A stretch of 53,262 nucleotides of DNA from an uncultured Prevotella sp. Lineage in GTDB: Bacteria > Bacteroidota > Bacteroidia > Bacteroidales > Bacteroidaceae. The notes under the pieces are model-generated. The model did not search any database, was not told the origin of the DNA, and saw nothing but the letters and a program-made list of their open reading frames with translations. A program made the translations under genes and the position numbers. Within the stretch, counting starts at the first letter, position 1, and every line of letters starts with the position of its first letter. The DNA lies in assembly GCA_944321295.1 (NCBI GenBank), contig CALUKU010000024.1, positions 1-53,262 on the forward strand, given 5' to 3'. Below, in pieces: positions 39,202 to 53,262 of this stretch.

Positions 39202-41925
<2,724 letters not shown>

Positions 41926-42163: not shown

Positions 42164-43645
42164 ATGGCAACATTAAAAGCAGTGGTAAGGACGATGAGAG
42201 CGGACGGCTTTTATCCCGTGTATATACGGATAACACATCATCGTGCTTCAACCTTCATCAAGACAGACAAAATGGTAACTCGTAGGGAGCTTACCAAGTC
42301 CAACGAAATCAAAGACCCGTTTGTGCTGCAATTCTGTACACAGCGCATACTGGAGTACAACGAGAAGCTGAACAAGGTGAACATTGAACACTGGACGGCA
42401 AAGGAGGTGGCAGAGTTTCTGATAAGAGAGGATAATGACATCTGCTTCTCTGACTATGCCCGGAAGCATATCGACCGCATGATAGACCGGGGACAACAGC
42501 GCAACGCGAAGAACTACCAGCTTGCGCTGAACCACATGGAGCGGTTTGCCGGCACAACGAAGGTGATGTTCTCTCACCTGACATCTTCATTCGTGAACAA
42601 ATGGATTGAATCGTTGGAGCAGACGCACAGGGCAAAGGAAATGTACCCTATCTGTATGCGTCAGGTATTCAAGGCGGCGACAATGGAGCTGAACGACTAC
42701 GACAACGGGCTGATCCGAATAAAGACAAACCCGTGGGTGAAGGTAAGCATCCCGAAGGCGGACCGCACGGAGAAGCTGGCGATAACGCCGGAGGCCTGCC
42801 GGCGGTTCTTCTCGTTTCCTCTGCCTGAAAGCAAGATGAAGTTTCCGCTTGCGGAGCTGGGTCGGGACGTGGCGATGATGGTGCTTTGCCTGGCAGGTAT
42901 CAACACGGTAGACCTGTTCAATATGCGCAAGGAGGACTACCACGGCGGCATCATCCACTACCAGCGTGCCAAGACCAAGAAGTTCAGGGCTGACGGTGCG
43001 TATATGGAAATGCGTGTTCCGCCCATTATCCTGCCGTTGTTCGAGAAGTATGTCAGTAAGGACGAGAAAGACGAGCATCTGTTTGTGTTCAGCGAAAGAC
43101 ATACGACCAACGACAGCTTCTGTGCAAACGTGAACGGCGGCATAAGGCAGATATGCCGGGCAATGGGCATGACAAAGGACGAGGACTATTCGGCGTACAC
43201 GTTCAGGCACACGTGGGGCACGGTGGCGCAGAACGACTGCGGAGCGTCAATCAGTGAGGTTGCATTTGCCATGAACCACAGCAGCGGGCACAAGGTAACA
43301 CGTGGATATATCAAGATTGACTTCACCCCGGCATGGGAGCTGAACGAGAAGGTCGTGGACTTCATTTTCTTTTCCGACAAGCCGTCAGTCAGAGAACGCC
43401 ACGAGGAAGAACCTCATTTCCGCCTGTCCTACCGCTACCAAGTACACGGCGAGGCATTTTTTCAGGGCAGGAAGGTGGCGGAGCTTACGGACACCGGCTA
43501 TAACAACGTGGATGAGGTCATAGACAAGCTGGCGGCGGAGCTGCCTGAAGAAATACCGGCACGCTCAATGGTAATGTTCAAGATAGAAAACATGGACAAA
43601 GGGCAGACGGTCGTTTACCAGCGAATGAAAGGAAAGGGATTTTGA
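42164..43645 (+). CDS. Tyrosine recombinase/integrase with C-terminal extension
   Basis: 493 residues. An N-terminal arm-binding domain (about 1-60, TLKAVVRTMRADGFYPVYIR) is followed by a SAM-like core-binding domain (about 85-190) and the catalytic domain. Box I reads CLAGINTVDLFNMR, where the usual Arg is absent (as also reported for the CTnDOT integrase). The HxxR motif reads YTFRHTWGT. Then come MNHSSGHKV and the catalytic Tyr in TRGYIKID at about 382. Some 110 residues continue after the Tyr (VDFIFFSDKPSVRERHEEE, then FRLSYRYQVHGEAFFQGRKV), far more than usual. It integrates/excises the element. A strong terminator follows. Confidence 0.9.
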   Translation: MATLKAVVRTMRADGFYPVYIRITHHRASTFIKTDKMVTRRELTKSNEIKDPFVLQFCTQRILEYNEKLNKVNIEHWTAKEVAEFLIREDNDICFSDYARKHIDRMIDRGQQRNAKNYQLALNHMERFAGTTKVMFSHLTSSFVNKWIESLEQTHRAKEMYPICMRQVFKAATMELNDYDNGLIRIKTNPWVKVSIPKADRTEKLAITPEACRRFFSFPLPESKMKFPLAELGRDVAMMVLCLAGINTVDLFNMRKEDYHGGIIHYQRAKTKKFRADGAYMEMRVPPIILPLFEKYVSKDEKDEHLFVFSERHTTNDSFCANVNGGIRQICRAMGMTKDEDYSAYTFRHTWGTVAQNDCGASISEVAFAMNHSSGHKVTRGYIKIDFTPAWELNEKVVDFIFFSDKPSVRERHEEEPHFRLSYRYQVHGEAFFQGRKVAELTDTGYNNVDEVIDKLAAELPEEIPARSMVMFKIENMDKGQTVVYQRMKGKGF

Positions 43646-43661
43646 CTTCGTGTTTTTTCAG

Positions 43662-43698
43662 CCCACAAGGATTTTTTCTTTGTGGGTTTTCTTTTTTC
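43662..43698 (+). terminator. Integrase terminator
   Basis: CCCACAA (43662-43668) pairs with TTGTGGG (43680-43686) and is followed by TTTTCTTTTTT. It lies 17 bp after the integrase stop codon. Confidence 0.8.
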
Positions 43699-43708
43699 GA
43701 TTTTTCCT

Positions 43709-43767
43709 CGCACGCACGCATACGCGCGCACGCGCTGTAGACGTAGATGGAGTATATTATATATATT
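43709..43767. other. Alternating Y/R run followed by AT-rich tract
   Basis: 43709-43735 is 27 bp of strict pyrimidine-purine alternation, nearly all CG/CA steps (Z-DNA-prone). Eighteen bases later 43753-43767 is pure A/T (TATATTATATATATT), the sort of tract that melts easily. Both lie directly before the 21-bp repeat blocks, in a non-coding gap of 525 bp. Confidence 0.6.
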
Positions 43768-43793
43768 CTCTTTTCTTTTCTTTGTTCCCCAAA

Positions 43794-44044
43794 TTCCGAA
43801 GAAATGCCCTTTTCTTCGGAAGGAATACCCTTTTCTTCGGAAGGAATACCCATTTCTTCGGAAGAAATGCCTTTTTCTTCGGAAGAAATAAGCCTGTTTT
43901 TTCACCCGTTTTTTGCCCGAAAACAGCCCTTTTTTACCCTGTTTTTTCCAATGTTCGGAAGAAAAGGCGATAACTTCGGAAAGAATACGCATTTCTTCGG
44001 AAGAAATACCCTTTTCTTCGGAAGGAATAATAATAACTTCGGAA
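43794..44044 (+). repeat. Two blocks of five near-palindromic 21-bp repeats
   Basis: The TTCGGAA core starts at 43794 (as TTCCGAA), 43815, 43836, 43857 and 43878, then at 43954, 43975, 43996, 44017 and 44038: exactly 21 bp apart within each block. Most units read TTCTTCGGAAGAA or GGAA, an odd-centred palindrome with arms up to 9 bp (43851-43869). The 69-bp spacer between blocks holds four T6 tracts starting at 43897, 43909, 43930 and 43942. Spacing of two helical turns suggests a protein-binding iteron array. As RNA each unit could also make a C(UUCG)G tetraloop hairpin. Because 21 is divisible by 3, several frames stay open, but none looks like a gene. Confidence 0.85.
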
Positions 44045-44060
44045 GAAATGCCTATAAATG

Positions 44061-44084
44061 GGTAAGGAATGGCGATTCCTTACC
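44061..44084. terminator. Hairpin closing the repeat region
   Basis: GGTAAGGAAT (44061-44070), loop GGCG, ATTCCTTACC (44075-44084): a perfect 10-bp stem directly after the last 21-bp repeat. It may terminate transcription or mark the edge of the control locus. No T-run follows on the plus strand. Confidence 0.55.
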
Positions 44085-44170
44085 AAGAAAAAAGCGATGC
44101 CAGTAACATGACCGGCACCGCCTCGATTATGAACACAAAATGAAAAAGAATCCTGTCAAAGTATAGTGGC

Positions 44171-44386
44171 TTATCCTAAGATTGTAATACTCCGGCCGCC
44201 TTCCTGTGCGAGCAGCTTCAGTTCATTAACCGTCAGAATGTCATTGCGGCACTCCACCGTGAGCATTGCACCTTTACGGGCTGCTTCCCTTGCGAATGTG
44301 CGCAGCTGATTAAACGAGTACACGTTTGCGTTGATACTGACATTCGCCCCTTGTTCAAGAATTGTGATGACTTTGTTGTAATCCAT
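44171..44386 (-). CDS. Small element-encoded protein, unknown function
   Basis: 71 residues, ATG 44386 to TAA 44171. Sequence begins MDYNKVITILEQGANVSI; it has a mixed alpha/beta pattern with ANVYSFNQLRTFAREAARKG in the middle and a hydrophobic close (RSITILG). I recall comparable small proteins beside terminase-like genes in Bacteroidales prophages, but I cannot name a family. It follows the terminase small subunit-like gene by 47 bp on the same strand and is probably co-transcribed from the promoter near 44757. Confidence 0.6.
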   Translation of the reverse strand: MDYNKVITILEQGANVSINANVYSFNQLRTFAREAARKGAMLTVECRNDILTVNELKLLAQEGGRSITILG

Positions 44387-44433
44387 ATTGTTTTATTTTT
44401 AAGTTGTAATCTAAAGTAGACGGAAATAGACGG

Positions 44434-44718
44434 CTAAGCCTCGCCGTCGTTTTCGGAAAGCTCAAGAAGTTTGTCCTCGATTGTCTTGCGTGTCTCGACC
44501 GTTGCGTCAATGGTAGTTGATTGCATCTTCGGCACAACGTAACTGGTCAGTTTCTCAATTATCATTAAACGGTCTTTCGGGTCGAGGACGGCCAAATCCT
44601 TTGCGAACTGTTCAGAATTATAGTATTCGCTCGTTGTCTCGATAAGTATATCACGTGCCGTCTTTGTCGTCCTGTTCGGTGTGCCCTTTGTTCTTCCTCC
44701 TGTTTTCTTGCCCCTCAT
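44434..44718 (-). CDS. Terminase small subunit-like protein
   Basis: 94 residues from ATG 44718 (MRGKKTGGRTKGTPNRTTKT). The basic GGRTKGTPNRTT start followed by helical ARDILIETTSEYYNSEQFAKDL and LDPKDRLMIIEKLTSYVVPKM is common in small proteins of Bacteroidales prophages, often annotated DUF5681-like or terminase small subunit. Such proteins bind phage DNA to begin packaging. The in-frame extension to 44880 overlaps the divergent gene and is rejected. It points away from the virion operon, so the terminase large subunit is not adjacent. Confidence 0.65.
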   Translation of the reverse strand: MRGKKTGGRTKGTPNRTTKTARDILIETTSEYYNSEQFAKDLAVLDPKDRLMIIEKLTSYVVPKMQSTTIDATVETRKTIEDKLLELSENDGEA

Positions 44719-44797: not shown

Positions 44798-45277
44798 ATG
44801 GGACTTATAGGAAGCGCACTGGGTGCCGCAGGCAGCATATTCGGCGGCATATCCGCATCGAAAGCGATGAAGAAAGCCAAGAAGAATGTGCAGGAACAGA
44901 TGCAGAAGAATCAGGACTGGTATGACCGGCGCTATAACGAGGATGCCACACAGAGGGCAGACGCACAGCGCATACTGACCATGACAGAGGAAAGCATTAA
45001 GAACCGCAACAGGCAGGCGGCAGGTACGCAGGCCGTAATGGGCGGGGCAGACGAAAGTACGGCAGCAGCCAAAGCCGCCAACAACCAAGCGTTGGCAGAC
45101 GCCACGGCGCAGATAGCCGTGAACGGAGAGCAGCGTAAAGACCAGATAGAGCAACAGTATCTGCAACGTGATGCAGAGCTGAACGAACAGTTACAGCAGC
45201 TCGAAGTGGGACGGGCACAAGCCATATCAGGTGCTGTGCAGGGCGTAACACAGGCCGCATCATCAATGCCATTCTAA
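44798..45277 (+). CDS. Putative virion/ejection protein
   Basis: 159 residues. A Gly/Ala-rich hydrophobic N-terminus (MGLIGSALGAAGSIFGGISA) is followed by a long Gln/Ala/charged helical region (KKNVQEQMQKNQDWYDRRY, then QIEQQYLQRDAELNEQLQQL). This layout is shared by DNA-pilot or internal ejection proteins that insert in the host membrane during genome delivery; I infer that role from architecture only. It starts the plus-strand operon, 12 bp before the next gene, divergent from the terminase-like gene. Confidence 0.65.
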   Translation: MGLIGSALGAAGSIFGGISASKAMKKAKKNVQEQMQKNQDWYDRRYNEDATQRADAQRILTMTEESIKNRNRQAAGTQAVMGGADESTAAAKAANNQALADATAQIAVNGEQRKDQIEQQYLQRDAELNEQLQQLEVGRAQAISGAVQGVTQAASSMPF

Positions 45278-46354: not shown

Positions 46355-49300
46355 ATGCCAAAAGATAACGAAAGCACCAAATGGCTGTATGAGCAGCTCA
46401 AGAGCAAAGGATATAATGTCGGCAAAGACCAAGCCGAGTTTGACAACCTGATGCGTAACAACAAGGCTTCGCGCGAGTGGGCGTACAAGACCGCCACGTC
46501 AGCCGGTCTGAACGTCGGCAAAGACCAGTCAGAGTTTGACAACCTTGTCGCACCACGGCAGCAGGCTCCCGCACCAACGCAGGAACCGGCCAACGACACG
46601 CAAGAGAGTACGGAAGAAACAGCGTGGAAGCCTACCATGCAGGAAAAACTGGCTATGAACGCACGCTTGAACGCAATAGGACGCTCGGCACAACGTACAA
46701 TGGACGACTTCAATACGCACATTGACAATCTGAATGAGTACGGAAAGACGTTAGGCGACGGACATACGGTAAACAGCGGCTACCGGTTTAACCCAGACAG
46801 CAAGAGAATGGAGCGCACCTACCTGACACCGACAGGCGAGCGGACATTCAACAAGGCCGCGGCGGATGCTGCCAGCCGTGAATACCGTGATGCCGTGGAC
46901 ATGACCGTAGGCGGACAGATACGCCGGGCGCAGAACCGCCTTCAGGAACTTAAAGACAAGGCAGCGGCACGCCAGCAGGAGCTTCACGACAAATGGGAAC
47001 AGGATTACAAGAACAATAAAGCCCCTCTTGCGGCTGTGCTTGCAAGAGACACTTACGTTCCTTCCATTCAGAGCGACCATACTTTCAGGGCATTGCAGGC
47101 AGCCATACATCAGACGGAGGAACAGATTAAGACGCTCAACGAGCAGAAAGACCGTGAGAACGGTGTTGATGTAGGCTTTTGGCGAGGCTTCATGCGCACG
47201 GCAGGCGATTTGCGCTCGTGGGATTTCGGCATCAACGACATGCTGGACGCAATGACCATGCTCCACGCACAGGACAAAGACCGTCCGCAGACCGAGCAGG
47301 AGAAAGATGCCAATCAGGACATGATGCGTGCCATTCATGAATACCAACAGACAGAGGCCATGTACGGCGGTAATGCCAGCTTTTGGAACAGAGCCGGCAT
47401 GATGACCGGCTACATGCCCTCGTTCATGCTTGACTTCGCCCTTACCGGCGGAGGATATGAAGGTATCAACGTGGCTTCGAGAGTGGCAGGCAAGGCAGCC
47501 AACTGGACCATAAAGGCACTCGGAACGACAACCGATGAATTGCTTATCCGCGCGCCGCTGATGACGAATACCGTACAGGCCGGAGACACAGCGGCTGACA
47601 TCATCAACAGGAAGCTCGGTGATGTAACGGTAGACGAGAACGGAAACTATGATTTCACCAACGACAAGACTTGGGGAAGTGCCATTTGGCAGGGCGAGGC
47701 AAACTCAATCGTAGAGAACTATTCGGAAATGTTCGGCACGCACCTGCCCGAAGTGGCATCGCTGAAAAACTTAGGCAAACTGGCCAACGTCATAGGAGCA
47801 AAACGCCTCAGCGGTGTGTTGTCTCGTGCCAATGCCGGTGCGCTGGGCGGCATCACGGACACAACACGCAGGATATTCGGGCAAATGGGTGTCAGCGACT
47901 ATCTGGGCGAGGTGTCAGAGGAATACTACGGCCAGTTATGGCGCACCATGCTTAACCTTGATGACGCATACCAGCAGAACGCAGACGGCACACGTACCAA
48001 TCTTTTCGCCACAAAACAGTTCCACGGCGATATATGGGGCGGCATGGCATTGTCTATGGGACTTATGGGAGCCGGAAAGACTACCATGAGCGCAGCCGGT
48101 TATCTCTCGATGAAGCACGATGTGAACAAAGCGGACGCAATGGCGAGCGAGCTACTTACTCCTGACGTGTGGGAGCCGTTGCGCAGTATAATCGACATGG
48201 CGACAAACGACAATGTGGGTGATGTGGCCGAGAGAATAGTGTCAGACAAAGAGCTTACCAATGAGGAGAAGGCAGCCGTCCTCAATTATATGGAACGCTC
48301 GCTGTATCTCCGGGGCGCGAACCTTGCGGAGCTTGTCAAGTCTCGTGGCGGCGAACAGGACGAGAACACCCAGCGTGCCAACGACAGCTACATAGACGGA
48401 TACAACGCAGCAACCGACGAGGAAAAGCAGAACGCCAAGAATATGTACGACTTGCAGCGTCAGAAGGCTGAACAGATATTGTCTCCCGAAACGCTTGCGG
48501 AGATAGACAACGACCCGATGGGCGCATTGCGGCAGCTCGGAGACGACGAGGAAGCCAATCATGCCATTATTGACTATATCAACGCAAAACAGGTGTATGA
48601 CGGCATGATACAGCGTGTAAGAGACGATATTGACAGCCGTATCGAGCAAAGTAACACGATGATTGACAGCCGTGTGAACCGTGCGACAGGAGCAATTCAA
48701 GGCGTGACGATGAAAGTGCAGGATGACGAGGGCAAAGACCGCCGGGCATACGTGCTGGAAGGAAACCTTGTCATGCTTGACGACGGCACAGGCATAGACC
48801 ATGACAATTCTGATGAGAGTATCGTCATACGTGATGCGGCGACAGGAGCCATTGAAATGGTTTCTCCTGATGCCATATTGAGCATGGAGCAGCCGGTAGA
48901 CCCTGAACTGGAGAAACAGACAGCGGCGGAAGCCATACGCCAGCAGTTCGCCGACGAAGCCGCCAACCGCATAGACGGTGTACTTCCGTTCAATCAGGGC
49001 GACACCTATACGCTTACGGACGGGAGCGGACAGCAATCACAAATTCAGATTGTGCCCAATCAGGACGGAATCGTGGACAACGGAGACGGCACGGTGAATG
49101 TCAGCTCTAACGGCGGCGTGACGGTCGTCCCGATGAGCAAGGATGACATTCAGCTCATGTCTGATGCCACGAACCGTGCCCGTGTACTCCAGTCGGAACA
49201 GCAGCGTGAGGCGGCACGATTAGAACAGGCGCAGCCTGAATACAGCCTGAACACCGAAGTAACCTTGCGTGATGAGGCCGGCAATGCCGTGCGTGGCAGC

Positions 49301-52300
49301 ATTACAGCCGACATGAACGATGACGGCCAGTATGAGGTATATACAGAAAGCCCCATTAACGGCAGGAAAGTAAACCTGTTTACAGCAGACGAGCTTAATG
49401 CACTCAATTATGAACAGCCTGAACAGGCTGACGGTAACAATGGCGGGCAGAATATTCCTGAAAATGGCAACATTGGACAGGAGAATATTCCTGAAAACGG
49501 CGACATTGGACAGGAGAATATTCCACAAAGAAATGTTGCAGGATATTCTGTCAATGAGGAAGCCGTCAATGGTATTACTTTGGATGACTTCATGAAAACG
49601 GACAGCTCATACGTTGAGAGTTATTATGCAGAGCATCCTGAAAGTATGGCGACTGAAATACAGGAAAAAGCAGAGGCAACCGCTGATTATTTGAACGGTA
49701 ATCTGTCAGCACATGATTATCTTGCCGCTCTTGGTTATGTGACAGGCGAAAAATCATGGCTTGATAATAGTGCGACAGAAGAAGAAATCGAGCAAACGGC
49801 AAGTGATAGAGTTGCAGCATATACGCCTTTCCTCAATCAGCCGGCAGCAACAGAAGCGGTACAACCTGCCACTACCGAAGTCGTATCACAGCCTCAACAG
49901 TCAGCCCTTGAACGCATCCCGAAAGATGACAAGGGCGAGCCTGTCTATGAACAGGCAGATGCCGATACGGCATGGGATGCCATTGTAGAACAGGCCGAAG
50001 GCGACGAGGCGACGGCAAAGGCGGTGGCTGACAGCATGGTGGCAGACAAGGAAGCCGAACTGAAGAAGGTGGAGAAGGCCAAGCCGAAAGGCGGAACGAC
50101 CGTTGCAGAGAAGATTGCGGCTGAACGTGAGCGTAAGAACGCCGTAGAACAGGCAAAAGCCACCCTCTCCCATTGGCAGAGGATTGCACAGACCGCTGAA
50201 CGCAGGCGGCAGGCAGCAATGGCAGAGCAGGCAAACGCAGCAGCGGAAGCCGCACGCTTACGGCGCGAACAGGAAGAAAAGGAACGTGCCGAGCGTGAGG
50301 AAGCCGACCGTATACGGAGAGAAGCGTTGAACGGTGTGCCCGACATCATCGACGACAAACCGCAGGATGCCCGTGCAAGAGGCTACCGCAGGGTAAACGG
50401 TGAAAAGGTAGACCGCCAGCAGCCGTTACAGGCAAAGCAAGGTAAGGAAGTGCAGGTGAAGTTCGACGACAAGAACATCCCGACCGGACATGTGTCGCTT
50501 ATAGAGGCGGAGCAGTTGCAGCCCAGCCATGTGAACGGACGAAGAAATCCGTTGCACTTTATTGATGAGGCACAGCCGAAAGAACGCAATGACGAGGCAA
50601 GCGTAATGTCAGCCCGGAACATTGCCGCTAACATACGTCCCGAAGAGATAACATCATCCGTAACGGCCTACACCGGCGCACCGACGGTAAACGCACGTGG
50701 TGAAGTGATACAGGGCAACAACCGCAGCGCGGCATTAAGAGAAATGTGGGCAGGCCAGCCCGAACAGGCTGCAAAGTACAAGCAATACCTTGCAGACCAT
50801 GCGGCAGACTTCGGCCTTACTCCTGAAGATGTGGAAGCCATGCAGCACCCTGTACTGGTGAATATGATTGACGTGGCTGACGATGACGCCATCACGCTTG
50901 GCCAGTTCGTTGCACAGGACACCGAAAGTGGCGGTGTGGAACGCATCAAGCCTAAGAATATCGTTCAGAAAATGGGAGGCAACATGCGCAGCTATGCCAA
51001 CCTGTTGCTCAAATCCACGGATGATGAGATGTCGTTTGCCGAGCTTGTGGACCGTAACGGCATGGACGTATTGAAATGGATGCAGCAGAAAGGCTACATC
51101 ACTTCCACACAGTACAAGAGTGCGTTTGACAGCAAAGGTAATCTGACGGCAGAAGCCAAAAATGACCTGAAAGGCATCATGTATCAAAGCATTTTCCAAA
51201 ATGGAAATACCCACTTGGAAGAAATGTTCGGTGCTTTGCCGGTGAAGGCACAGAAGGCTATCCTCGCCACGGCATACCGTGATTATGACAGTCCCAATGC
51301 GGAGCGTATGAACATGGAGCTGCAAGACTCGATAAGCGCATACTATGCTTTGTCGCAGATGCCCGAATTTGCCAATGCTAAGAACTACAAGGAAGCCCGG
51401 ATTGCAGCCGAGGCGTGGAAAAGGCAGCTTGCATTAGACGATGTTACGGGCGAAAGTTATCTTCCTTCGGAAAGATATAGTAACTTTGCCATATTGCTTG
51501 CAACAATGTATAAGGGACAGACGCAGATGTTCATACAAAACACGTTCAAGAACATCTACGACCTTGTGCAGGGTACGCAGGAAGAAACACTGTTTGAAAC
51601 GCCTGACAACACACCTCGCACGCTTGTCGCTGCTATCAACAAGGCTATAAACAGCGTACGTTCAGAACTTTTAATAAACGAACAATTTACATACAATAAT
51701 GGACAACGGAGAAGCAATGTACTGGCTGGCAGTAGTACAACAGGCCAACAAGGGGGACAAGGAAGCCCTGGAAGTCTTGAGACAGGAGAACGAGTTGAGA
51801 ACGGAGACGCAACAGCCGACCGTTCAGGAGGAACTGAAAGCGATAGCGGAGAGGAAGAAATAATCCGCCGCGAGGAAGAACTGGCCTCACGGGTTGAGGT
51901 GAGTGATGACGACTGGCAAGAGGGTGATGCCGAAAAGCCGACTTACAAACGGAGCATCATTATTGACGGAAAGCATACCGCCACGCAAATAGACCAACCT
52001 GACGAGGGCGGGCATTATACAGGCTCCTATTTTGAGTTTGACAACAAGCGTTTCGGTGATATTGCTGAAATCATTGATTACATAGACAATGGCAATACGC
52101 TCGCCTCTAAGATTGCAGAGGAAGAAGCAAAGGTAAATGTCAATCCTACTGAAGCACAGAAGGAAGCCGGCAACTATAAGAAAGGACACGTCCGCATCGG
52201 CCAGTTTGATGTGAGCATTGAGCAGCCGAAAGGCAGCGTGCGCAGCGGTGTGGATGCCAGCGGCAACAAATGGGAGACGACCATGCAGAACACCTACGGC

Positions 52301-53262
52301 TACATACGTGGCACGGAGGGCGTGGACGGCGACCATATAGACGTATTCCTCACGAATGACATCGACGGCTGGAACGGCCGGCGTGTCTACATCGTAGACC
52401 AGTACAACGAGGACGGCACATTTGACGAGCATAAAGTAATGCTCGGTTTCAATGATGAAGCCGACGCACAGGACGCTTATTTATCCAACTATGAAAAGGG
52501 CTGGGAGAATAAGCGCAAACTTGTCATGACTTCCGTGAACCTGCCCGACTTCGAGAAATGGGTAAACAGCAGCCACCGAAAGACGAAACCTTTTGCGGAA
52601 TATCAGTCTGTAAATGGAGAGCAGAAAACAATCAGTCCGACAGACAGAGCGACCGAAATAACCAATAGAATGTCGGAGCTGAAAAAACAGGCAGATGAGG
52701 CACACGGACGTAGCGATATATTCGAGGAAGCCCGGCTGATAGCGGAGAGTAACGAGCTTTACGCAGAACTTCGCAGATTGCAGCAGTCGTCTAAAACAGA
52801 TGAGGCAAGCGCAAACCTTTCTCCTGAAATAAAATCATTTGCCGAAAAGCTCGCCGAGCGTACAGGCATGGATGTCGAGAAACTTTCGTCGATGCTTGCA
52901 GATCCTAAAATGACACCTGAACGGATAAATGAGTTCGGGAGATACGACAGTCTTGTAAGCACGGCAGACCATAGCAAGGTTTCCGCTTTCATTTCTGAAA
53001 TAGAAGGAAAAGAAGTACCCACCCGACTTGTTATGCCGAAGTTCGACAAGCTGTTACGTGAGTTTATTTTGCCTGATACACGTAGTAAGGCAATGGATGC
53101 CATGTCAAAGCCGGCAAATGTTGAGCAAGCCAAGAATGAGCTTGAAACAGAACAGCAGCCAGTTCAAACTGACGGTTATACCGTAGAACGTCGCTATCAT
53201 AAAAAGAACGGCACATACATCAATGCCGTGAAGTTTACAGAGCAAATGCCGCGTGAACGTTT
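46355..53262 (+). CDS. Giant polyvalent protein, partial (>2300 residues)
   Basis: One uninterrupted frame from ATG 46355 to the window end (2302 complete codons seen). Two related N-terminal motifs, LKSKGYNVGKDQAEFDNLM and SAGLNVGKDQSEFDNLV, lie within residues 1-70. A mostly helical region follows to about 700, with charged coiled coil at about 1250-1330. A DdrB/ParB-like domain has TVNARGEVIQGNNRSAALRE at about 1444-1463. An inorganic-pyrophosphatase-like domain sits at about 1925-2060 (AGNYKKGHVRIGQFDVSIEQ, then DGDHIDVFL). The visible end (YTVERRYHKKNGTYINAVKF) starts another large-polyvalent-protein-associated domain. Polyvalent proteins are thought to enter the host with element DNA and counter defences. 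Function of the individual domains is inferred. Confidence 0.85.
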   Translation, partial: MPKDNESTKWLYEQLKSKGYNVGKDQAEFDNLMRNNKASREWAYKTATSAGLNVGKDQSEFDNLVAPRQQAPAPTQEPANDTQESTEETAWKPTMQEKLAMNARLNAIGRSAQRTMDDFNTHIDNLNEYGKTLGDGHTVNSGYRFNPDSKRMERTYLTPTGERTFNKAAADAASREYRDAVDMTVGGQIRRAQNRLQELKDKAAARQQELHDKWEQDYKNNKAPLAAVLARDTYVPSIQSDHTFRALQAAIHQTEEQIKTLNEQKDRENGVDVGFWRGFMRTAGDLRSWDFGINDMLDAMTMLHAQDKDRPQTEQEKDANQDMMRAIHEYQQTEAMYGGNASFWNRAGMMTGYMPSFMLDFALTGGGYEGINVASRVAGKAANWTIKALGTTTDELLIRAPLMTNTVQAGDTAADIINRKLGDVTVDENGNYDFTNDKTWGSAIWQGEANSIVENYSEMFGTHLPEVASLKNLGKLANVIGAKRLSGVLSRANAGALGGITDTTRRIFGQMGVSDYLGEVSEEYYGQLWRTMLNLDDAYQQNADGTRTNLFATKQFHGDIWGGMALSMGLMGAGKTTMSAAGYLSMKHDVNKADAMASELLTPDVWEPLRSIIDMATNDNVGDVAERIVSDKELTNEEKAAVLNYMERSLYLRGANLAELVKSRGGEQDENTQRANDSYIDGYNAATDEEKQNAKNMYDLQRQKAEQILSPETLAEIDNDPMGALRQLGDDEEANHAIIDYINAKQVYDGMIQRVRDDIDSRIEQSNTMIDSRVNRATGAIQGVTMKVQDDEGKDRRAYVLEGNLVMLDDGTGIDHDNSDESIVIRDAATGAIEMVSPDAILSMEQPVDPELEKQTAAEAIRQQFADEAANRIDGVLPFNQGDTYTLTDGSGQQSQIQIVPNQDGIVDNGDGTVNVSSNGGVTVVPMSKDDIQLMSDATNRARVLQSEQQREAARLEQAQPEYSLNTEVTLRDEAGNAVRGSITADMNDDGQYEVYTESPINGRKVNLFTADELNALNYEQPEQADGNNGGQNIPENGNIGQENIPENGDIGQENIPQRNVAGYSVNEEAVNGITLDDFMKTDSSYVESYYAEHPESMATEIQEKAEATADYLNGNLSAHDYLAALGYVTGEKSWLDNSATEEEIEQTASDRVAAYTPFLNQPAATEAVQPATTEVVSQPQQSALERIPKDDKGEPVYEQADADTAWDAIVEQAEGDEATAKAVADSMVADKEAELKKVEKAKPKGGTTVAEKIAAERERKNAVEQAKATLSHWQRIAQTAERRRQAAMAEQANAAAEAARLRREQEEKERAEREEADRIRREALNGVPDIIDDKPQDARARGYRRVNGEKVDRQQPLQAKQGKEVQVKFDDKNIPTGHVSLIEAEQLQPSHVNGRRNPLHFIDEAQPKERNDEASVMSARNIAANIRPEEITSSVTAYTGAPTVNARGEVIQGNNRSAALREMWAGQPEQAAKYKQYLADHAADFGLTPEDVEAMQHPVLVNMIDVADDDAITLGQFVAQDTESGGVERIKPKNIVQKMGGNMRSYANLLLKSTDDEMSFAELVDRNGMDVLKWMQQKGYITSTQYKSAFDSKGNLTAEAKNDLKGIMYQSIFQNGNTHLEEMFGALPVKAQKAILATAYRDYDSPNAERMNMELQDSISAYYALSQMPEFANAKNYKEARIAAEAWKRQLALDDVTGESYLPSERYSNFAILLATMYKGQTQMFIQNTFKNIYDLVQGTQEETLFETPDNTPRTLVAAINKAINSVRSELLINEQFTYNNGQRRSNVLAGSSTTGQQGGQGSPGSLETGERVENGDATADRSGGTESDSGEEEIIRREEELASRVEVSDDDWQEGDAEKPTYKRSIIIDGKHTATQIDQPDEGGHYTGSYFEFDNKRFGDIAEIIDYIDNGNTLASKIAEEEAKVNVNPTEAQKEAGNYKKGHVRIGQFDVSIEQPKGSVRSGVDASGNKWETTMQNTYGYIRGTEGVDGDHIDVFLTNDIDGWNGRRVYIVDQYNEDGTFDEHKVMLGFNDEADAQDAYLSNYEKGWENKRKLVMTSVNLPDFEKWVNSSHRKTKPFAEYQSVNGEQKTISPTDRATEITNRMSELKKQADEAHGRSDIFEEARLIAESNELYAELRRLQQSSKTDEASANLSPEIKSFAEKLAERTGMDVEKLSSMLADPKMTPERINEFGRYDSLVSTADHSKVSAFISEIEGKEVPTRLVMPKFDKLLREFILPDTRSKAMDAMSKPANVEQAKNELETEQQPVQTDGYTVERRYHKKNGTYINAVKFTEQMPRER
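49451..49525 (+). repeat. 33-bp tandem repeat in the polyvalent gene
   Basis: Units 49451-49483 and 49484-49516 differ at two positions, and a third begins at 49517. They encode NIPENGNIGQE / NIPENGDIGQE / NIP, a hydrophilic linker whose copy number may vary. Confidence 0.8.
51699..51863 (+). CDS. Candidate overlapping small gene inside the polyvalent gene
   Basis: A 54-codon frame, +1 relative to the polyvalent frame, from ATG 51699 to TAA 51861-51863. Its product (MDNGEAMYWLAVVQQANKGD... to ...ELKAIAERKK) is a charged, helical, normal-looking protein. Over the same bases the main frame reads only Ser/Gly/Gln/Thr-rich linker. Either this is a genuine overprinted gene, or the two frames are remnants of a gene junction fused by a frameshift. 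No clear ribosome binding site is visible. Confidence 0.4.
   Translation: MDNGEAMYWLAVVQQANKGDKEALEVLRQENELRTETQQPTVQEELKAIAERKK

Follow-up and report, generated by a model that had tools for sequence, protein, structure and literature searches.

The window analysed here is the whole 53,262-nucleotide stretch of contig CALUKU010000024.1 from an uncultured Prevotella sp., and its segment of interest is the left end of a Bacteroidota prophage beside the host ppdK gene, which ends at 41925. After the integrase and the gap come two small minus-strand genes, then a virion-like gene of 159 aa, a gene of 349 aa and a giant DarB-like open reading frame (ORF). The gap (43646-44170, 525 bp) is convergent, lying between the integrase and a small minus-strand gene, and it holds ten TTCSGAA cores at 43794-44044, exactly 21 bp apart within each of two blocks of five. 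On comparison with related records, this array is very probably an iteron replication origin of a temperate Bacteroidota phage, located outside the initiator gene.

The array and the locus

The array is built as follows.

43790..43888, no strand: iteron block 1, five 15-bp palindromes with cores at 43794 (TTCCGAA), 43815, 43836, 43857 and 43878
43889..43949, no strand: spacer between the blocks, with phased T tracts
43950..44048, no strand: iteron block 2, five 15-bp palindromes with cores at 43954, 43975, 43996, 44017 and 44038 (TTCGGAA)

An earlier note, made from the letters of this DNA alone, had described ten copies of a TTCGGAA-centred near-palindrome. The repeat is there, and its unit is more accurately an odd palindrome of 15 bp, TTTCTTC-N-GAAGAAA, joined to the next by a 6-bp linker. 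The register of 21 bp and the division into two blocks of five were as that note had read them: TTCSGAA-N14-TTCSGAA has 8 matches in the window versus 0.00 expected in 100 dinucleotide-preserving shuffles, which excludes a chance origin of the array. Also present are the four T6 tracts that it had listed in the spacer (starts 43897, 43909, 43930 and 43942). The spacer has five A/T tracts of at least 4, versus 1.0 in mononucleotide shuffles, with a helical phasing R of 0.84, and it is probably intrinsically bent, as predicted from these tracts.

A selfish or chance repeat of the host genome would explain repetitiveness, and nothing more. The three-core pattern occurs in the host genome at this site only, the two-site pattern in 2 of 200 sampled genomes of the genus, one of them the window's own, and the array reappears at a single position in a phage family whose records name several host groups. 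We therefore rejected this explanation, whose probability is negligible.

The other features of the gap include all those that had been pointed out before, namely the AT tract, the alternating run and the 10-bp hairpin, within 525 bp of noncoding DNA.

43660..43688, plus strand: terminator-like hairpin, 3' of the integrase (hairpin scan)
about 43711..43736, no strand: alternating purine/pyrimidine run (by eye)
43750..43785, no strand: AT/pyrimidine tract ending CTTTGT (AT tract 43750-43779), 8 bp before the first iteron core
44061..44084, no strand: perfect hairpin with a 10-bp stem and no T run after it, right of block 2
44091..44124, minus strand: terminator-like hairpin for the minus-strand genes (hairpin scan)

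The two terminator-like hairpins bounding the gap are weak calls, because the scan found 2 versus 1.1 expected in shuffles. The alternating run was also seen by eye in the gaps of relatives with other iterons. Within the gap, DNA stability is lowest in the 40-bp segment from 43744, which ranks 139 of 53222 in the window, and the AT/pyrimidine tract is a probable DNA unwinding element. Two marks of an iteron-type theta origin are found here: several direct repeats about two helical turns long (the ten cores at 21 bp) and a probable AT-rich unwinding element (the predicted unstable AT tract beside block 1). The 8-bp register between tract and first core recurs, in counts made without a shuffled control, in 13 of 25 gaps tested, the window included (e.g. 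L064, L067, L144, L148 and L073), and in 7 of 13 in-gene copies (e.g. L277 and L298); matches in L113 and L305 were discounted, as no tract is present there. At 43737-43752 of the window and at L008:32992-33010, in phages with different iterons, a GTAGATGTAG / TAGTAGTAG run adjoins a TATATA tract, a run that we take to recall DnaA-trio elements.

The neighbouring genes are listed below.

42164..43645, plus strand: tyrosine integrase, 493 aa, last gene before the array (Pfam PF13102, phrog_1 integrase)
44171..44386, minus strand: 71-aa small protein, with a relative beside one other array phage (L034/L072)
44434..44718, minus strand: 94-aa small conserved phage protein, terminase-small-subunit-like (TerS-like) by look only
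44798..45277, plus strand: 159-aa virion-gene marker, weakly like the T7 gp14 internal virion protein, below the Pfam cut-off
46355..53262, plus strand: giant DarB-like ORF of 2302 aa or more, truncated by the contig end (ddrB-ParB and inorganic-pyrophosphatase-like (InPase) domains)

The 94-aa protein has no Pfam match, its PHROGs matches are weak and to families of unknown function, and its structural model is of low confidence. Just past the 3' end of its gene (44417-44440), a TCTAAAGTAGA...TAGA-like sequence, found at the same place in several relatives whatever their iterons, could be a packaging or other signal. A 33-bp tandem repeat lies within the giant ORF (49449-49524). On another contig of the host (G000:C17:22681-25890; L367, L368), a distant homologue (30-34%) of gp34 of the Bacteroides phage BKO1-TP3 may mark a second prophage.

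Recurrence of the repeats in gaps and in initiator genes

Within a phage family the array is found repeatedly at a single position, and the records concerned have titles naming Bacteroides, Phocaeicola, Prevotella, Muribaculaceae and others. Scanning IMG/VR for the pattern gave 41 stretches, 11 of which have the array near both the TerS-like and the 159-aa genes; no relative of these two genes was found in the other 30. The earlier note had proposed to test whether the array always lies beside an integrase. This neighbour matters less than assumed, since the array in IMG/VR stretches also stands next to integrases just 19-24% identical to that of the window. Arm-type sites of the integrase, or an excision complex, would be expected to lie next to attP and to follow the integrase type; the array is present with distant integrases and missing beside close ones such as that of BKO1-TP3. 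The nearest annotated phages by integrase are BKO1-TP3 (77% identity) and Bacteroides phage BS-TP4 (75%). The gap of BKO1-TP3 is ~150 bp long and has no array, and at this position BS-TP4 carries the palindromes of the window at irregular intervals, with TGTACATTTAT motifs interspersed.

An alignment search with the 159-aa marker provided 80 viral and 80 genome loci (the best 80 of 104 and the best 80 of 95). Of these 160 loci, 29 have at least two CTTCNGAAG sites in the 6 kb upstream of the marker and 2 have them downstream, so the expectation that relatives keep the array holds for some and fails for many. The expected regular spacing of the units fared similarly, being not always 21 bp and yet not random. 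Among 100 neighbour spacings, from 17 gap arrays with distinct spacing patterns (the pattern of the window is that of L064), 54 are 21 bp, followed by 31 (11), 42 (6) and 52 (4), with 63 and 73 twice each. These values are mostly helical multiples, as would suit proteins bound along the same side of the helix. The five-and-five layout is also present in L064 and L159. Spacer A/T tracts exceed shuffles in most dense arrays, being well phased in the window, L064, L078 and L148, and poorly phased in L071, L080, L170, L193 and L211.

The integrase-to-TerS gap could be extracted from 63 of the 160 loci (59 distinct), and excess 9-mer repeats occur in 48 of 50 distinct gaps of at least 450 bp, 5 of 5 of 300-450 bp and 1 of 4 shorter ones. 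A second palindrome class, TTGTACAATTAT / ATAAATGTACATTTAT, is interleaved with TTCNGAA in BS-TP4 (L008:33030-33440) and in gaps L149, L158, L071, L080, L170 and L147, and it occurs without TTCNGAA in the gap of L068. The gap of L155 has non-palindromic AACCCCAAA-type repeats, direct in block 1 and inverted in block 2, an orientation that suggests two oppositely oriented half-origins.

The same repeats also lie inside genes. The placement whose constancy the earlier note had proposed to test, between an integrase and small minus-strand genes, is kept in some phages and not in others, which have in-gene copies. BKO1-TP3, whose genome is complete, has three CTTCNGAAG sites, one elsewhere and two, 21 bp apart, within the gene for gp19, which is annotated as a replication initiation protein. 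The arrays of L026, L030, L045, L049 and L040 are likewise within initiator genes (same records as L297, L276, L277, L303 and L298). The products of the array-bearing genes carry the Lin1244_N (PF14297) Pfam domain (all but L040 tested) and match PHROGs replication-initiation families; PHROGs also links Lin1244_N proteins to an O-like family. Within the genes, the 21-bp repeats are in-frame heptads such as ISSEEKx in the initiator linker, and 21 bp thus represents seven codons and two helical turns at once. Ten of 14 further linkers have 7-codon repeats by eye, several of other sequence, and in most of these ten an AT-rich stretch such as AGTACACAAAGTAAAG comes next. A general period-21 scan of initiator ORFs (13 of 47 versus 8 of 47) was not used as evidence, because AAAGTAAAG tracts raise control periods too and the scan is unspecific. 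A VRR-NUC neighbour was present in just 4 of 17 records, and no recognisable initiator was found in three of four 20-kb stretches, probably because the records that they come from are fragments.

In the AlphaFold2 model of initiator L258 (23 rows, mean pLDDT 72.9), the N-domain is predicted with confidence, the linker, where the in-gene repeats would be coded, is disordered, and the C-domain is helical. The Lin1244_N model gave weak structural matches to CodY, to DnaD N-domains, to 4pql and to the initiator 4pt7, the last two being presumably RepA_N proteins; a sequence search with the initiator alignment against solved structures gave 0 matches at E<=1.

We searched for the initiator in 25 records with gap sites (three with one site only) and in 26 selected because they had none. 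A strong initiator (E<1e-50) was found in 16 of the 25, and none of the 16 has CTTCNGAAG in or around its gene, L234 having three scattered TTCNGAA. The 26 records gave 3 strong initiators, 6 weak matches and 17 without any. Of the three strong ones, L247 carries repeats in the gene, L249 has two TTCNGAA in its gap (L073), and the gap of L248 (L147) holds degenerate sites. Among viral records of at least 50 kb, the initiator is present in 8 of 8 with gap sites versus 1 of 11 without.

We then defined close initiators, or type A, by an N-domain score of at least 162 (46 records), and distant Lin1244_N initiators by a score of at most 124. The exact 21-bp pair occurs in 14 of the 46. With G263 (pair elsewhere) and G287 and G288 (pair in the N-domain part of the gene) set aside, the remaining 11 divide into seven whose pairs are confined to the gene and four whose pairs are confined to the gap; none has both. 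A search for the 21-bp pair gave none in the 21 records whose Lin1244_N initiator is more distant, an independent control, and none in 29 marker records without gap sites, which were picked from loci without upstream CTTCNGAAG and so are not an independent control; in 15 of these 29 the initiator was never sought.

Across initiator types, at least two TTCNGAA are found in the gap or upstream of the TerS-like gene in 14 of 15 type-A phages versus 1 of 12 with other initiators, a count that leaves out three type-A side-branch phages (2, 1 and 2 sites) and L145 (in-gene repeats, none in the gap), and that is not independent of the initiator result in 16 of 25 records, since many of the 15 were picked for having arrays. 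L113 and L176, of a divergent Lin1244_N subgroup, have GTTTCCTC-type repeats in the gap, and their initiators pair with support 100/93. Six records have strong DUF6291 matches and other repeats. The DUF6291 phages share no single iteron sequence (L069 and L070 differ from L075), and among the 50 long gaps excess repeats are lacking only in the near-identical ones of L075 and L157, both of the DUF6291 group; the match of initiator and iteron is therefore best for types A and B. The gap seems, on these repeats, to be an origin site for several initiator types. At L344:9778-10368 and in L228, DUF6291 and Lin1244_N N-domains stand on the same DUF7833 C-domain in one phage family, which by domain composition is a swap of the initiator N-domain.

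A probable replication origin and its alternatives

The reading as a replication origin is favoured because the same repeats lie inside initiator genes and track the initiator across records. This comparative evidence supports the replication half of the earlier suggestion of a plasmid-like replication or partition site; the partition half gains no support, as the sites track the initiator, though no search was aimed at partition genes. In the mechanism that we propose, dimers of a Lin1244_N-type initiator would bind the 15-bp palindromes through an N-terminal winged-helix-like domain, and sites two, three, four or more helical turns apart would line the dimers up along a single side of the helix. 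Bending at the phased T tracts of the spacer would bring block 1 round to block 2. The complex so formed would open the neighbouring AT/pyrimidine tract, where a helicase loader and helicase would be recruited next, with theta replication after induction or infection. In many phages the origin would lie within the initiator gene, in the linker-coding stretch, and in the lineage of the window the gene would have no iterons and the origin would occupy the convergent noncoding gap as two blocks. Binding, bending, melting and the loading of the helicase are inferred, as are the direction in which the origin moved and the presence of such an initiator in the window phage.

The array could instead be a packaging (pac/cos) site whose repeats are bound by the neighbouring TerS-like protein, given that it lies within ~2 kb of the TerS-like gene in the 11 IMG/VR stretches holding both, even with a distant integrase. 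However, the repeats follow the initiator and not this protein: BKO1-TP3 has a 55% identical protein and no gap array, and L027 a 42% identical one with an array. Moreover, tblastn found no TerS-like neighbour where the repeats lie in initiator genes (part of each record covered), and the 94-aa protein was called TerS by look only. We consider packaging very unlikely.

Odd palindromes with phased spacing are typical of dimeric regulators, and the earlier note had considered a repressor or excision complex site. An operator array of the phage repressor or another regulator (stoperator-like), or a prophage partition site, would accommodate this geometry. Yet the gap is convergent, so that neither neighbour starts within it, and the sites are absent from the repressor region in two phage records: all 7 CTTCNGAAG sites of BS-TP4 are in the gap and none near the repressor gene (54 of 64 kb covered), and none of the three in the complete genome of BKO1-TP3 is near its repressor gene. 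As the sites also track the initiator across records, a regulatory or partition role is highly improbable, and the earlier suggestion gains no support.

Another possibility would be a second, oriR-like origin that mainly stalls forks for the switch to concatemers, the primary origin being elsewhere. In phage SPP1 (PMC6316719), the initiator binds oriL in its own gene and the noncoding oriR, and bound oriR is proposed to stall forks. Against such a division, the 16 gap-site initiators have no such in-gene iterons, and no record with both placements was seen; we regard this explanation as unlikely.

Several observations weigh against the array as an origin keyed to a Lin1244_N initiator. The initiator of the window phage gave 0 matches in its own assembly (one query protein, no positive control there), and its type was therefore taken from L064 in G200, the closest relative with an initiator (integrase 88%, marker 92%). 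Nine of the 25 gap-site records showed no true initiator: six are records of 24-49 kb, probably fragments; the contig of G215 apparently stops shortly after a gene that in BKO1-TP3 comes ahead of the early region; G220 resembles a prophage remnant; and G223, with one site only, fits none of these cases. Seven of the 16 initiator-positive gap-site records are whole genomes, where co-occurrence is per genome and not per prophage. In L147, an initiator is present in the genome, yet the gap has only degenerate sites mixed with TGTACA sites. The exact pair is found in only 14 of 46 type-A records, many of them short, and it is missing in 4 of 10 of at least 50 kb; in two of those four (L282 and L302) the gene contains variant repeats. 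For the tract register, 12 of 25 gaps and 6 of 13 genes gave no match. Foldseek with the initiator model found nothing at E<=0.001. Finally, the records counted are related to one another, and the statistics are nominal.

The number of moves of the origin is not settled by the initiator tree, which has 5 label changes for the gap, 7 for the in-gene placement and leaves 19 of 53 inner forks open. The labels were assigned manually (L248 as gap though the L147 sites are degenerate, L304 as in-gene A though it has mixed repeats), and variant repeats occur in some of the in-gene rows. We lean slightly towards a broader proposal, in which the integrase/TerS-like gap would be an exchangeable origin site in a large family of temperate Bacteroidota phages, with two iteron blocks round a spacer keyed to the phage's own initiator (Lin1244_N type A or B, DUF6291 or others). 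The origin would have left, or be able to leave, the initiator gene, freeing the DNA-binding domain for swaps with the shared DUF7833 part kept.

Known origins and implications

The origin of phage lambda has four iterons and an AT tract. Its iterons are in gene O, and it is not known to have a pair of five-site blocks. The likeness consists in iterons and a one-sided AT-rich tract within an initiator gene, and in the PHROGs link of Lin1244_N to the O-like family; the location of the lambda origin in gene O is given in PMC6022878.

By analogy, the array is most like SPP1 oriR. SPP1 (PMC6316719) has direct repeats and an AT-rich unwinding element both in the gp38 gene (oriL) and ~13 kb away in noncoding DNA (oriR), with one initiator binding both, which parallels the in-gene and noncoding locations seen here. 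SPP1 holds both copies, whereas each record seen here has one or the other; its repeats differ, the two-block palindrome layout belongs to the present array, and the comparison is drawn between the origins.

Two plasmids treated in PMC5703833 are also comparable. The N-terminal 120 residues of pSK41 Rep bind boxes in the middle of the rep gene, which encode a dispensable linker, and this makes a loss of in-gene repeats plausible in the phages. The placement of the origin in the linker-coding part of rep is shared, as is a weak match of the Lin1244_N model to 4pql/4pt7; in contrast, pSK41 is a plasmid whose origin stays in the gene, with no relocated two-block array described. The Rep_3 plasmid pSK639 has five 22-bp repeats upstream of rep as its likely origin, resembling one block in its five tandem repeats of about two turns and differing in its initiator, its single block and its position upstream of rep.

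Among the literature matches listed, including those for Bacteroides phages, BKO1-TP3 and Salyersviridae, we found no description of where replication of these phages starts and nothing on this phage. Our analysis puts forward a specific origin, together with its predicted binding site and initiator, for phages that are common in gut bacteria. The family provides natural pairs of initiator and iteron for reading the recognition code, and its related phages would have the origin in different places. The two-block, phased and probably bent layout makes a looped or bidirectional origin complex directly testable.
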